58,232 nucleotides of DNA from positions 1 to 58,232 of the forward strand of contig CANJJI010000006.1 of NCBI GenBank assembly GCA_947474545.1. The letters run 5' to 3'. This DNA is from Beijerinckiaceae bacterium (lineage in GTDB: Bacteria > Pseudomonadota > Alphaproteobacteria > Rhizobiales > Beijerinckiaceae). Numbering within the stretch: position 1 is the stretch's first letter; the number at the start of each line of letters is the position of its first letter. Shown piece after piece: positions 46,192 through 51,334 of the stretch. Both the position numbers and the translations under genes were made by a program. A model generated the notes under the pieces. The model was not told where the DNA came from and ran no database searches. It saw only the letters and a program-made list of their open reading frames with translations.

Positions 46192-46709
46192 TCCTGTACT
46201 CCCCGAGGCTGCGGTTGAGCCTGATGCGAATTGTTTTGCGCACCCGCCCCCACATGTCTGGCCCCCAGCTGCTTCCGCAGTTCGCGCACCTGATTTCTGG
46301 CCTCTTCCAGATGCGAACGAAAACGCGCCGGTTCCCAGATTTGAAACTTGTATCCCTGCCCCACGAAGGTCACTTCGGACGTAAGTCCCGCAAAGTCCTT
46401 CAACGAGTCCGTCAAAATGATACGGCCCTCCGCATCCATTTTCAGCGTCTCGCTCACGCCCATCAACGCAACTGAATAGACATCGTGCTCCGGCGTGTAG
46501 GGCCTGAAATGATCCAGCAAACCGTCGATCTGCCGTATCAACCCATTCCCGCCGCAATCCAGCGCCTGCTGATCGAGCGAGGGGTGAACGTAGAGCCCCT
46601 CGAATCCGTCCTTCGCCATCACCGCCCTGAACGAGGCCGGTATGGAGACGCGGCCCTTGGAGTCGAGCCGGTTTGTAAAGTTTGCGACGAACCGATCCAG
46701 CACACGCAC
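46188..46709 (-). CDS. mraZ: transcriptional regulator MraZ
   Basis: Cluster regulator made of two SpoVT-AbrB-like halves, 173 residues. Each half carries the Asp-x3-Arg signature: DSKGR at 16-20 in [13 protein letters not shown], and DAEGR in [14 protein letters not shown]. The C-terminal tail after about 145 is Gln/Arg-rich and longer than in E. coli MraZ (152 residues). The likely start is the GTG at 46709 (GTG-CGT-GTG-CTG); a second GTG two codons later is possible. In E. coli MraZ represses its own operon through TGGGN repeats; matching repeats lie 143-177 bases upstream here. Confidence 0.93.
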
Positions 46710-46851
46710 CCAACCTGCGGTCAGAAAGGCTTACGCCCTCTTTCCCGCTATTCACGCTGACGCTCCCGGTCACGAAGATTGGCGCGAAGTCATTCCAACG
46801 CGCCGGCGCGGGCCGGCCCGGAAACGGTCTCGGGCAAATCACTGAACTCGA

Positions 46852-46886
46852 CGGGATGATTTGGGATAGCATGGGATTTTATGGGA
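46852..46886. promoter_or_regulatory. MraZ operator, four 5-bp repeats
   Basis: On the plus strand CGGGA, TGGGA, TGGGA and TGGGA start at 46852, 46862, 46872 and 46882, each separated by exactly five bases (TGATT, TAGCA, TTTTA). This is the known MraZ-binding arrangement of TGGGN repeats with five-base spacers. On the minus strand the array includes TAAAAT (46881-46876), a good -10 candidate for mraZ transcription, with TTGACG just ahead of it. MraZ bound here would block that promoter, giving autorepression. The promoter assignment is inference; the repeat array is directly visible. Confidence 0.88.
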
Positions 46887-46945
46887 CGTCAATGGTGCAG
46901 TTGAGTCGAAACGGGACGGAGTCCTGCTCTGGCCCATTAGCTATT

Positions 46946-46957
46946 GTTAATATTAAC
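46946..46957. promoter_or_regulatory. 12-bp perfect AT-rich palindrome
   Basis: GTTAATATTAAC, a perfect dyad, lies in the 376-base region between mraZ and the divergent opgC-like gene. It could be an operator or part of a promoter for either. It contains TTAATATTAA, but without the seven-base spacing of a CtrA box. Confidence 0.4.
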
Positions 46958-47085
46958 GAAGAGTTGAGAATCCCCGATTTTAGGCCATCAAAAGGGATTC
47001 TTTCTCGCTGGACTGCGCCCGCTGGACGCACAGCCCTGGGCGCGATAGATCAGTCACAGGCTGTATGGCCAGACGGAACGCCAGA

Positions 47086-48234
47086 ATGAGCGAGCAAACG
47101 GTGCGCCGCCCCGACCAAGCGCGCCCAAAATCGACAGTTTTTTTTCGCCCCAAGAAACGTCTGGCGAACGAAATCGATTTTTGGCGCGGTTTCGCGCTCG
47201 TCTCGATCTTCATCAACCACATCCCGGGCATCGTTCTGGAAAAGATCACTCACCGCAATTTTGGCCCATCGGATTCGGCTGAATTGTTTGTGTTTCTGGC
47301 GGGCTTCTCGCTTCGCTTCCTTTCAGAAAGCCGGTCTGAAAACCTGACCACACCGCGCCTGTTCATGCGCCTGGAAGCACGAACTTTCACGATTTACGCT
47401 GCCCATATTCTGACCGTCGTCCTGGCCCTCGCGCTTCTGGCAAGCGCCGCACTATGGTTCGAGACACCATTGATTTTGCAATGGCATAACGCCCAGACTT
47501 TTTTTCAGGACCCGGTACAGTCAATTATCGGAATCGCCGGCCTGAGCTATCAACTGGGATATTTCGATGTCCTGCCGCTCTATGTCGTGCTGATGGCAAT
47601 AGCGCCATTTATTGTTTTGCTTCATAGATTTGCACCTAACATCCTATTGCCCGTCTCGATCCTCATATGGGTCGCGACGCTCTATAACGAGGTGAACGTA
47701 CCCACATGGCCCATCGAAGGCCGTTGGTTTTTCAACCCCGTCGCGTGGCAATTGTGCTTTGTTACAGGTTTTGTCCTTGCGCGGCCGACAGGCATAGGCG
47801 CTTGGACCCGAAACAATCACTATTGGCTGCGTTGGATAGGCTTCCTGATTGTGCTTGCGGGACTGATCATCACGTGGTTTGCGCTGTGGCCCGATCCGTT
47901 TACCGCTCCTCAGCCATATCTATTTTTTGTTTTCGAAAAAACCTACCTGTCTCCTGGCCGGTTTATTCACCTTCTGGGGCTGGTAGCATTTGTATCGGGC
48001 GCCTACGTATGGCTTGATAAATTTAATATATTTCAATATATTGGATCATTTTTTGCGTTGCTTGGCCGCAATTCCCTGAACGTATTTTGTGCTGGGTCCC
48101 TGTTATCACAGGCCGGACAGATCACGCGCTTCGCCGCGCCAGTGAGTATTACGACTGATCTTCTTGTGGTAACTTTAGGTGTCATGATAATGACAGTAGT
48201 GGCCTGGATGAACGAATGGCGCAAACGTCTATGA
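47086..48234 (+). CDS. OpgC-like membrane acyltransferase
   Basis: Polytopic inner-membrane protein, 382 residues with about ten hydrophobic segments, of the OpgC family. OpgC succinylates periplasmic glucans in enterobacteria, and related proteins modify other glycans. Marks: NEIDFWRGFALVSIFINHIPG at the first helix, the FGPSDSAELFVFLAGFSLRF segment, ARTFTIYAAHIL and the WFFNPVAWQLCFVTGFVL helix. The ATG at 47086 is preferred over 47065, although neither has a strong ribosome-binding site. No glucan synthase (opgGH, ndvB or cgs) is present. Its stop overlaps the following SGNH hydrolase gene, implying that both act on the same glycan or surface polymer. Confidence 0.85.
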   Translation: MSEQTVRRPDQARPKSTVFFRPKKRLANEIDFWRGFALVSIFINHIPGIVLEKITHRNFGPSDSAELFVFLAGFSLRFLSESRSENLTTPRLFMRLEARTFTIYAAHILTVVLALALLASAALWFETPLILQWHNAQTFFQDPVQSIIGIAGLSYQLGYFDVLPLYVVLMAIAPFIVLLHRFAPNILLPVSILIWVATLYNEVNVPTWPIEGRWFFNPVAWQLCFVTGFVLARPTGIGAWTRNNHYWLRWIGFLIVLAGLIITWFALWPDPFTAPQPYLFFVFEKTYLSPGRFIHLLGLVAFVSGAYVWLDKFNIFQYIGSFFALLGRNSLNVFCAGSLLSQAGQITRFAAPVSITTDLLVVTLGVMIMTVVAWMNEWRKRL

Positions 48235-49148
48235 AATCGATTGCAAGCTTAGCCGCTTTTGCTGTCACTTTGTTTTCGGGTTTTGCATTGGCGCAGGACG
48301 CTGGCGGCGTTTCGCCTAACGTGTCCAGCCCCTCCATAGCCAGTCCCGTTGACCCGACCGCTTTGCCCGAAGTGGAGAGCACGGCTCATGACTGGCCAAA
48401 AATGCCTCCGGAACTCTCATTGATGAGTTCGCAATGTGCCGTTCCCTCGGCAGACCTTGCGACCCTTGTGCCCGGTCTCGGCCGGACTGTCGAAAAACTG
48501 GGCACGACGAAGAAACTGCGCATTCTGGCAATCGGCTCTTCATCCACCTGGGGCGTAGGCGCGTCCAGCCTCAAGCGCAATTATCCCTCGCGGCTGGAAG
48601 CCATATTATCCAATGTTTGGAAGGGCGTTGAACTCGAAATCATCAATCGCGGCGTCGGTGGCGAAGTCGCAGCCCAGACCGCAGCCCGATTACTGGACGA
48701 AATTGATCTGGCCCAGCCGGATATGATTCTTTGGCAGGTCGGCACCAATGATGCGCTGAACAATGTTCCGCTCGAAAGTTTTGAGAAACCTGTCCGCTCG
48801 ACGATAGCCGAAGTGCGACAGCGCAATATAGACATCGTTCTGGTGGGACTGCAATACACGCCCAAATATGCACGGCACGAACATTATTTCAAAATTCGCA
48901 ATCTCATGGAGATAATTGCTGCAAGCGAAAGCCTGCTTTATGTGCGCCGCTATCGCGCGATGGAATTCATAGCCAATACCAAAGCTAATCTGTCCATGAT
49001 GTCGAGTGACAATTTCCACCTCAATGATCTGGGATACCAGTGCATGGCTGAACATGTCGCACAGGCCGTCGTCGCTAATCTTTTTGTGCGCCGCAGCGAC
49101 AAATCCAAGGCGCTCGCCGGCGCGTCTGTGGTTGCGCGGCCAAATTAA
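48231..49148 (+). CDS. periplasmic SGNH/GDSL-type hydrolase
   Basis: Exported esterase-like protein, 305 residues. The start at 48231 overlaps the OpgC-like stop as ATGA and begins a signal peptide ending Ala-Leu-Ala-Gln at about 22. The SGNH fold residues are present: AIGSSST with Ser104 as nucleophile, Gly144 in NRGVGGE, Asn173 in GTND, and Asp260/His263 in DNFH. A linker of about 70 residues rich in Pro and Ser lies between the signal and the domain. Coupling to an OpgC-like acyltransferase suggests addition and removal of acyl groups on a periplasmic glycan (inference). A degenerate relative follows. Confidence 0.87.
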   Translation: MKSIASLAAFAVTLFSGFALAQDAGGVSPNVSSPSIASPVDPTALPEVESTAHDWPKMPPELSLMSSQCAVPSADLATLVPGLGRTVEKLGTTKKLRILAIGSSSTWGVGASSLKRNYPSRLEAILSNVWKGVELEIINRGVGGEVAAQTAARLLDEIDLAQPDMILWQVGTNDALNNVPLESFEKPVRSTIAEVRQRNIDIVLVGLQYTPKYARHEHYFKIRNLMEIIAASESLLYVRRYRAMEFIANTKANLSMMSSDNFHLNDLGYQCMAEHVAQAVVANLFVRRSDKSKALAGASVVARPN

Positions 49149-49307
49149 GCGCTTAGGCGCGTATAACAAGCGAAATGTATAGCATGCGGAACGGATCCAC
49201 TCGTCATGCAGTGCAGCAAGAACAGCCAAGACCGCGCTACATATAGTGTTCGTGCATTCATCTCAATTGTGCTAACGTTCATTTCAAACAATCGCTCAAG
49301 ATCCCTG

Positions 49308-50165
49308 ATGTCATTCAATACGCCCAGGATACTTTTCGCCGCCGCTGTGCTCATGCTGGCAGGCTCAGCTATTTCATGTGCGCAGGAAGCACCTGCGGAG
49401 CCTGCACAAAAGCCTGCGGATACGGCGCACGAAGCCCCGCCAGCAGCGCAGCTGCCCGAACCCAGCGTATTGAGCTTGCAATGCACAGTGCCCTCTCAGG
49501 AAATCGCGACCCCCGCGCCCCTGCCAGCAACGATCGCCAGATTGCAATCTGGCAAGACCCTTCGAGTCCTGGCAATCGGTTCCGCATCCGTGCAGCAATT
49601 CGACCGCAAGACAAACCGGGTCAATGAGAGCTCGCAATTCGCTAGCCTGCTTGGAAAGGTTCTGAAAGACGTCAAGATCGAAATCGTGAACCGTGGCGTC
49701 TCGGGTGAAGTCGTTTCAACAGCGGCTCAACGCCTGATCAACGAAGCAGTATTGGCGCGGCCCAATCTCGTATTGTGGCAGCTCGGGACCAGTGACGCGA
49801 TTTCACGCGTACCGGTCGACGAGTTCATAGACACCGTGCGTTCAACCGTTCAGCGCCTGCGAGCCAATAATATCGATGTCGTACTCGTTGGTTTGCAATA
49901 TACGCCGCAATTTGCCCGCGACGCACAATTCTATGCCATGCGTACCGCATTGACGAAATTGGCCAGCGATGAACAGATCGTCCTCGTCCGCCGCTATAAT
50001 GTGATGGATTTCATCGCCCGGACCAAGGCCAACCTGCAAGTGACGCCAGACGGCGAGTTCAACGCCGGTGACATTGGACCACAATGTATGGCCGAACACG
50101 TTGCCCAGGCAGTTATCGCGAGTGTGTTCCTGCGCCGTCCACGGAAACCCGGCAACAAGAGCTGA
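49308..50165 (+). CDS. degenerate SGNH-hydrolase paralogue, probable pseudoenzyme
   Basis: Exported protein of 285 residues clearly related to the preceding SGNH hydrolase: NRGVSGEV, DIVLVGLQYTP-like DVVLVGLQYTP, LVRRYNVMDFIA, ARTKANLQ and GPQCMAEHVAQAV align without effort. Yet catalytic positions differ: the nucleophile is Ala93 (GSAS), GTND has become GTSD (Ser162), and the DNFH block reads GEFN (Asn252 for His). Only the block II Gly (133) is kept. The frame is full length and shows no stop. The start at 49308 gives a signal peptide; a longer frame from 49206 exists. It may bind rather than cleave the substrate. Confidence 0.85.
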   Translation: MSFNTPRILFAAAVLMLAGSAISCAQEAPAEPAQKPADTAHEAPPAAQLPEPSVLSLQCTVPSQEIATPAPLPATIARLQSGKTLRVLAIGSASVQQFDRKTNRVNESSQFASLLGKVLKDVKIEIVNRGVSGEVVSTAAQRLINEAVLARPNLVLWQLGTSDAISRVPVDEFIDTVRSTVQRLRANNIDVVLVGLQYTPQFARDAQFYAMRTALTKLASDEQIVLVRRYNVMDFIARTKANLQVTPDGEFNAGDIGPQCMAEHVAQAVIASVFLRRPRKPGNKS

Positions 50166-50206
50166 AAGCCTGCCGGACACGTCCCACAAATTTATATTTT
50201 CTGAAC

Positions 50207-50224
50207 ATGGGCATATTTGCCCAT
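50207..50224. promoter_or_regulatory. 18-bp palindrome upstream of the metF-metH operon
   Basis: ATGGGCATATTTGCCCAT: seven-base arms ATGGGCA/TGCCCAT around TATT. It lies 79 bases before the ArsR-methyltransferase start, in a very AT-rich spacer, and could be that regulator's operator. No T tract follows on either strand, so a terminator is unlikely. A second small dyad, ACATA/TATGT, covers the start codon at 50293-50306. Confidence 0.5.
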
Positions 50225-50302
50225 AACAATATATATGCAAATTTTGAATTTTATTGATCCTGCCCACTTGCCAATTTTAATATAAGGTATAAACATATCT
50301 TT

Positions 50303-51334
50303 ATGTCAATTTATCACCCCAACGACCCCGCTCGTCCCGTCGCCCCGTTAGCGAACGTCCTTGATGCCCTTCAGGCTGCAGGCGAAATCACCAGGTTGCG
50401 CCTCCTCGCCCTGCTGGCAGAAGCCGAGCTGACCGTCAGCGAACTGGTTATCATTCTAGGCCAATCACAGCCAAGAATCTCTAGACATCTCAAACTATTG
50501 GTTGAGTCAGGTATGGTCGAGCGCCACCGCGAGGGCGCCTGGGCCTTCTTTCATCTGGCGCAGACAGGACCGGAAGTTCAGATGGCCCGCAACATTGTTC
50601 AGCGGATGGATCCCAATGACCCACTGATAGCCTCCGACCGCATTCGCCTTGAGGAAGTCCGGAATGGACGCGCGGATCGTGCCGCCCGTTACTTCGCTGT
50701 GCAGGCTTCCGATTGGGACCAAATCCGCTCACTACATGTGCCGGAAGCGCAGGTGGAAAACGCAATTCGCGAAATCGTGGGCAAGGGTCCATTCCAATCG
50801 GTTCTCGATCTTGGAACAGGAACCGGGCGCATGCTGGAAATCCTTGCGCCGGTCTCCGTGCGCGCCGTCGGCGTGGATTTCAGCCCTGCCATGCTGAACG
50901 TCGCGAGGGCCGTGATCGAGCGCAGCGGCCTGCGCAACGTGCAGCTTCGCCAGGGCGACCTCTACGCACTGCCTGTGGAAGCTGACGCCTATAATCTGGT
51001 CGTTCTCCATCAGGTGCTTCACTATCTCGACGATCCCGCCCGCGCCTTGCGCGAGGCTGCGCGCGCGCTTCGCCCCGGCGGCCGGTTGCTGGTCATCGAT
51101 TTTGCGCCGCACACGCACGAATTTCTACGCGAGCAACATGAGCACCGCCGTCTCGGCTTCGCTGCGGACGAAATCGCCGCCATGCTGCGCGACGCCGGTC
51201 TTGAGGTTGAGAGCCATCGTAATCTCGAACCCGCCTCGCGCGACGGGGACAAGCTTACAGTTTCGATCTGGGTTGCGCGCGATCGCCGCATTTTGACCGA
51301 TGTTCTCCCCCGAACTTCGACGGAGCTGGCATGA
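50303..51334 (+). CDS. ArsR-family regulator fused to a SAM-methyltransferase domain
   Basis: Two-domain protein, 343 residues. Residues about 15-95 form an ArsR-type winged helix with the recognition helix in QSQPRISRHLKLL (54-66). The Cys motif of metal sensors is absent. Residues about 125-330 are a class I methyltransferase with motif I DLGTGTGR at 169-176, GVDFSPAML, and RPGGRLLVIDFAPH. The methyltransferase part may have become a sensor of SAM or S-adenosylhomocysteine. Its stop overlaps metF (ATGA), so it is made with the enzymes of methionine regeneration and probably controls them. The spacer upstream is AT-rich and contains palindromes. No strong ribosome-binding site is visible. 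Confidence 0.9.
   Translation: MSIYHPNDPARPVAPLANVLDALQAAGEITRLRLLALLAEAELTVSELVIILGQSQPRISRHLKLLVESGMVERHREGAWAFFHLAQTGPEVQMARNIVQRMDPNDPLIASDRIRLEEVRNGRADRAARYFAVQASDWDQIRSLHVPEAQVENAIREIVGKGPFQSVLDLGTGTGRMLEILAPVSVRAVGVDFSPAMLNVARAVIERSGLRNVQLRQGDLYALPVEADAYNLVVLHQVLHYLDDPARALREAARALRPGGRLLVIDFAPHTHEFLREQHEHRRLGFAADEIAAMLRDAGLEVESHRNLEPASRDGDKLTVSIWVARDRRILTDVLPRTSTELA

Follow-up and report, generated by a model that had tools for sequence, protein, structure and literature searches.

The gene at 49308 to 50165 of the window, as we call the whole stretch of 58,232 nucleotides analysed here, encodes a secreted SGNH-fold protein from which the catalytic serine, asparagine and histidine are gone; judged from its alignments and its pattern of substitution, it is very probably a maintained pseudoenzyme. 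In agreement with the proposed link to an OpgC-like acyltransferase, it shares an array with a PF10129 gene, and the same holds for all three loci at which this protein was found. The array of the window contains three genes:

47065 to 48234, + strand: opgC, OpgC-family membrane acyltransferase (PF10129, Pfam E 1.2e-82).
48216 to 49148, + strand: A, periplasmic SGNH protein (PF25182 and PF13472, alignment).
49308 to 50165, + strand: B, secreted SGNH-fold paralogue without catalytic Ser, Asn and His (profile matches, alignment).

The OpgC neighbour shows both the PF10129 profile match and the motif DxxRx10H, formed in the window's protein by D38-x2-R41-x10-H52, and probably attaches acyl groups to periplasmic sugars. 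The first 19 bases of A are shared with the end of opgC. With A starting at 48216, the residues that the sequence-only reading had numbered Ser104, Asn173 and His263 become 109, 178 and 268, and by alignment the catalytic set of A is complete (Ser109, Gly149, Asn178, Asp265 and His268). The reading frame of B is intact. Its longest open reading frame starts at 49206; as in an 87%-identical relative the frame opens no earlier than 33 bases upstream of the matching start, and as a signal-peptide-like stretch comes after 49308, the latter is the better start. The gap between A and B (49149-49307) is poorly conserved. A separate promoter or terminator between the two genes was considered and rejected, a scan of 46700-50320 having found no site in this gap, with overall counts near those of shuffles (5 vs 3.1 ± 1.8 and 6 vs 3.8 ± 1.9). 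Downstream, 50303-51334 encodes an N-terminal ArsR-type HTH with a C-terminal methyltransferase domain and precedes metF; it is 91% and 94% identical in the two other genomes with B (G019, G003).

A and B are indeed paralogues, with 46% identity over 256 residues (E 1e-80, a value for one single comparison). B matches PF25182 (3.4e-40) and PF13472 (2.5e-08), both above cut-off, and its PF25182 score of 138.1 bits is similar to that of A (138.6, cut-off 80). By these matches it belongs to the SGNH/GDSL superfamily in fold, and solved SGNH proteins match it by sequence. PF25182 carries the name 'Non-GDSL lipase-like', which is silent on OpgC and on loss of catalysis; the phrase 'non-GDSL lipase' was absent from the literature searched. 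In the alignment to A and relatives, Ala93 occupies the nucleophile position of block I, Ser162 replaces the asparagine of block III and Asn252 the histidine of block V, while the oxyanion glycine of block II is retained as Gly133. The position of the block V aspartate is taken by Gly249, with Asp248 of B one residue earlier. Every residue named in the sequence-only reading, including the displaced aspartate, was right. A lipoprotein nature of B was considered as well and rejected, the cysteine near the signal peptide being missing in the G003 copy.

To these losses B adds purifying selection, the second mark of a pseudoenzyme. Nei-Gojobori dN/dS values were calculated by script over about 221 codons of the domain for B and A and over 389 codons for OpgC. 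Between the window's genome (G000) and G019, B has a dN of 0.037, a dS of 1.105, which lies in the range near or above 1 where estimates are imprecise, and a dN/dS of 0.034, with 18 differences at 495 non-synonymous sites vs 97 at 168 synonymous sites; the neighbours give 0.039 (A) and 0.087 (OpgC). For the pairs with G003 the values are 0.121 and 0.148 for B and 0.093 and 0.071 for A. Over this longer span B is somewhat freer than A, yet clearly constrained. The suggested selective upkeep of the frame is borne out by the closest pair, and neither relaxed selection nor a frameshift was found in the two relatives G019 and G003. A slowly decaying duplicate without function would fit the occurrence of B in only three genomes seen, in an OpgC-linked family that repeatedly loses catalytic residues; selection is too strong for it, however, with so low a ratio at a dS of about 1.1, and this most improbable of the readings was set aside. 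Faster-evolving dead pairs do exist elsewhere in the family, with dN/dS values of 0.356 (G084-G201), 0.288 (G082-G296b) and 0.286 (G231-G418).

The search for further copies of B covered 200 related genomes, 139 of which gave a B match with an E value of at most 0.001. Among the frames fetched and compared, only those of G019 (87%) and G003 (67%) are clear copies besides the window's: the G019 frame scores 516 bits to B vs 230 to A, the G003 frame 376 vs 250. Seven more frames (G048, G082, G146, G075, G491, G487 and G231) favour B over A by only 3-22 bits, and the six of them present in the tree fall outside the B group. G019 and G003 have the identical order OpgC, live A, dead B, a protein being called dead if the serine or the histidine is missing, and their arrays sit between mraZ and the ArsR-methyltransferase/metF genes. 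Two genomes of the window's genus that are more distant (L122, L123) have the same neighbours, with a single SGNH gene there. Across the three B copies the nucleophile is always replaced by alanine and the block III asparagine by serine, while the histidine has become Asn, Asn and Ser, so that no copy with an intact catalytic set was seen. As both other copies share the alanine and the serine, with Asn or Ser at the third site, these losses are not due to chance.

The copies also bear on the suggestion that B might be an enzyme of different chemistry with another centre, for instance at Ser94 or in the Asp99-Arg100-Lys101 loop. All three share Ser94, Gln96, Phe98, Asp99, Arg100 and Lys101, while Ser92, an asparagine in one of them, is not conserved. 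Nevertheless, nearly all live relatives (0.98) likewise have a serine at this place, next to the true nucleophile, and the histidine and block III asparagine that would support a nucleophile are gone. Hence we consider such a new centre improbable.

The loss of the active site recurs among relatives. Around matches in the same family and order, 136 SGNH reading frames were collected, of which 131 were counted; the genomes were reached via matches to A, B or their profile and part of the matches was fetched, and OpgC operons are unevenly surveyed in these counts. Left out were a frame cut by a contig end (G036), two of G017, and distant extra matches in G014 and G048. Of the five, three also look degenerate. 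Dead proteins number 46 of the 131: the three B copies, 12 in the window's genus, 22 in a genus here called g9, and those of G075/G076/G146, G082/G296, G084/G201, G204 and G406. The serine is still there in 31 of the 46, whose classification therefore rests on the histidine.

In the 12 dead partners of the window's genus the histidine has been replaced by Ser, Asn, Arg or Lys. In genus g9, arginine has replaced the histidine in all 22 genomes examined and the aspartate in 17 of them, with the serine kept in 15. It is probably Methylobacterium, since a g9 sequence has 92.7% identity over 84% of its length to a Methylobacterium bullatum replicon sequence that directly follows an OpgC and shows these altered motifs as well. 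The loci concerned are L108, L110, L163-L182 and L203, and the arginines could form an anion-binding pocket. In G084 and G201 (L096:3833-5956, L183:3899-4852), both OpgC-linked, the nucleophile alone has changed, from Ser to Ala, and Asn, Asp and His are kept. At L080:4724-6099, with no OpgC in view, a live SGNH gene has a degenerate SGNH frame directly upstream that extends to the contig end.

On the best tree, live and dead states change six times, and at least four changes are forced by well-supported branches; the 91-row and 131-row trees were built quickly and have long branches, and the changes may be losses or regains. By these trees the dead state occupies at least four branches and probably six or more. 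In a 41-row tree, B joins the 12 His-lost single partners at 73/68 support (best tree), while both alternatives, A with B (p 0.129) and A with the 12 His-lost proteins (p 0.353), stand under the AU test.

All 46 dead proteins among the counted rows lie in OpgC operons, 43 adjoining OpgC and the three B copies in third place. The restriction to counted rows is necessary because one left-out G017 frame, of 200 aa and running to the contig end, looks degenerate and has no OpgC in view. Among the 102 rows with a flag for adjacency to OpgC, 59 keep both Ser and His; some of the 26 live rows without this flag are frames at contig edges (G020, G099) or genes in third place of OpgC operons (G075, G406). 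Fisher's test of dead state vs OpgC linkage gives p 4e-6, a descriptive value that ignores kinship. All 22 g9 genomes examined have the dead protein as the immediate neighbour of OpgC. The acyltransferase itself carries DxxRx10H in all 61 aligned sequences, that of the window among them, and in each of the 95 OpgC reading frames of 300 aa or more from relatives. Beside a dead partner the motif is kept wherever it could be checked, in 44 of 46 cases, namely 41 of 41 complete same-locus frames and the complete copies of the window, G019 and G003, while G008 and G037 are fragments. Hence, the acyltransferase stays intact while the active site of its partner erodes.

What the dead proteins retain was compared at 31 positions that are near-invariant in the 59 live OpgC-linked proteins (numbering of A). 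Thirteen of these are kept in at least 45 of the 46 dead proteins, and ten in all of them: Cys74, Gly107, Leu131, Gly149, Trp173, Gly176, Asp179, Ala180, Arg245 and Cys276. The nine least kept are His268, Tyr274, Asp265, Gln213, Asn178, Ala105, Ser109, Ser110 and Gly115. The catalytic Ser109, Asn178, Asp265 and His268 are among the eight least kept, Ser109 being tied with two others; for Ser and His this low retention follows partly from the definition of dead, for Asn and Asp it does not. Arg145, Glu150, Arg158, Gln174, Met277 and Glu279 are also among the positions that dead proteins retain. In a crude hydrophobicity scan, all 46 dead proteins and 58 of the 59 live linked ones showed a hydrophobic segment ahead of the domain. 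The dead proteins hence look like folded, exported domains with a putative disulfide bond, export being suggested by hydrophobicity.

As B is well preserved and the same loss has occurred several times in relatives, it probably has a job other than catalysis. For 40 of the 46 dead proteins, the fetched stretch (1.1 to 4.6 kb downstream) contains no second SGNH match, an indication that their role is with OpgC itself. On the sequence evidence, we give about even chances to B being a non-catalytic periplasmic subunit of the OpgC acylation system. It would be an exported, folded SGNH domain unable to form the acyl-serine intermediate. OpgC would move the acyl group of a CoA donor (succinyl or similar) across the membrane and then either transfer it itself or hand it to live A, while B would bind OpgC and/or the acceptor glycan and so hold the acceptor in place. 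Most simply, OpgC would be able to carry out the transfer, with its SGNH partner contributing a function that outlasts the loss of catalysis, be it docking to OpgC, binding of the acceptor or both; live A of the window may supply an additional relay or editing activity. Several observations speak against a subunit role: the majority of OpgC-adjoining proteins (59 of 102) keep Ser and His, B was seen in only three genomes, most dead proteins (31 of 46) still have the serine, and some dead lineages evolve faster. An SGNH-like fold without an active site is used for binding in the OSK domain of Oskar, a eukaryotic RNA-binding protein; there is no close kinship to B, for which the OSK match (E 0.014) is below cut-off.

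As the main rival reading, B may regulate A or OpgC, as a decoy on the OpgC docking site of A or as a heterodimer partner of A, and so tune the degree of acylation. The co-location of A and B, the conserved non-catalytic positions kept by B, and other arrays with a live and a dead protein (G075, G146 and G406, in the order OpgC-dead-live) would suit a regulator. However, with most dead proteins lacking a second SGNH match in the stretch fetched, a regulator would often have no live neighbour to act on. Regulation in trans would be compatible with the genomes of the window's genus that have a His-lost partner, as 11 of these 12 have a live SGNH gene elsewhere, the twelfth being 73% complete. 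Overall, we rate a regulatory role as rather unlikely. In three of the 11 genomes the second live SGNH gene is next to a second OpgC; at these loci (L072, L073, L075) the second OpgC precedes the live gene, and the first OpgC has the His-lost partner. The second live gene may go back to a single inherited gain.

For the subunit role, the acceptor is likely a periplasmic glucan, since the window's genome has two OpgG-family genes, a frame at the expected place of opgH, and a second OpgC. At L130:4402-8186 of this genome, opgG (PF04349) is followed by a frame of 736 residues at the place expected for opgH, which it could be. No third relative of A and B was found in the window's genome, in which the second OpgC ends 214 bases before a contig end. 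More tentatively, and with less confidence than in a subunit role for B, we propose that the selected role of the SGNH partner in OpgC systems is structural, presenting the acceptor glycan while OpgC does the final transfer; on that reading, the repeated loss of the active site, up to a whole genus (probably Methylobacterium) in which OpgC has only a dead SGNH directly beside it, would follow.

OpgC has been placed in the TmAT superfamily, and DxxRx10H is an AT3-type motif (PMC12423673). The fused AT3-SGNH O-acetyltransferases OatA and OafA/OafB likewise combine a TmAT-superfamily membrane domain with a periplasmic SGNH domain, whereas here the two are encoded by separate genes and B is without the triad that OafA needs. 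In such fused enzymes the final transfer depends on the SGNH triad: S412A, H590A and D587A of OafA retain 0.36%, 0.87% and 10.13% of the wild-type signal (PMC7448272), and this need counts against a non-catalytic subunit role of B. The human acetyltransferase NXPE1 is reported to be abolished by Ser to Ala as well (PMC12216134). In PMC9558356, OpgC is credited with the succinylation of periplasmic glucan and described as acting alone; unlike such stand-alone OpgC/MdoC succinyltransferases, the operons here have one or two SGNH genes after OpgC. E. coli gave no match in a PF10129 control search, so MdoC and the window's OpgC may be distant. PatA/PatB and AlgI/AlgJ/AlgX also join a membrane acyl carrier to separate periplasmic SGNH protein(s) (PMC9487903), but PatA and AlgI are MBOAT proteins, and AlgJ and AlgX use a Ser-His-Asp triad. 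In the abstracts and passages covered by the literature searches, made in a collection with a minority of the subscription journals, dead SGNH partners of OpgC are nowhere described.

The value of the finding lies in the recurrence of catalytic loss among relatives, which was invisible to a reader of the window alone. The authors of PMC9558356 and PMC9833829 ask how stand-alone acyltransferases of this kind work, whether an SGNH partner is required and what the SGNH domain adds. Operons in which OpgC is accompanied by a live SGNH partner, a dead one or one of each amount to a natural mutant collection for these questions, which Methylobacterium would make testable in harmless laboratory bacteria. 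If the structural role holds, SGNH proteins paired with transmembrane acyltransferases would act primarily as adaptors and only secondarily as enzymes.
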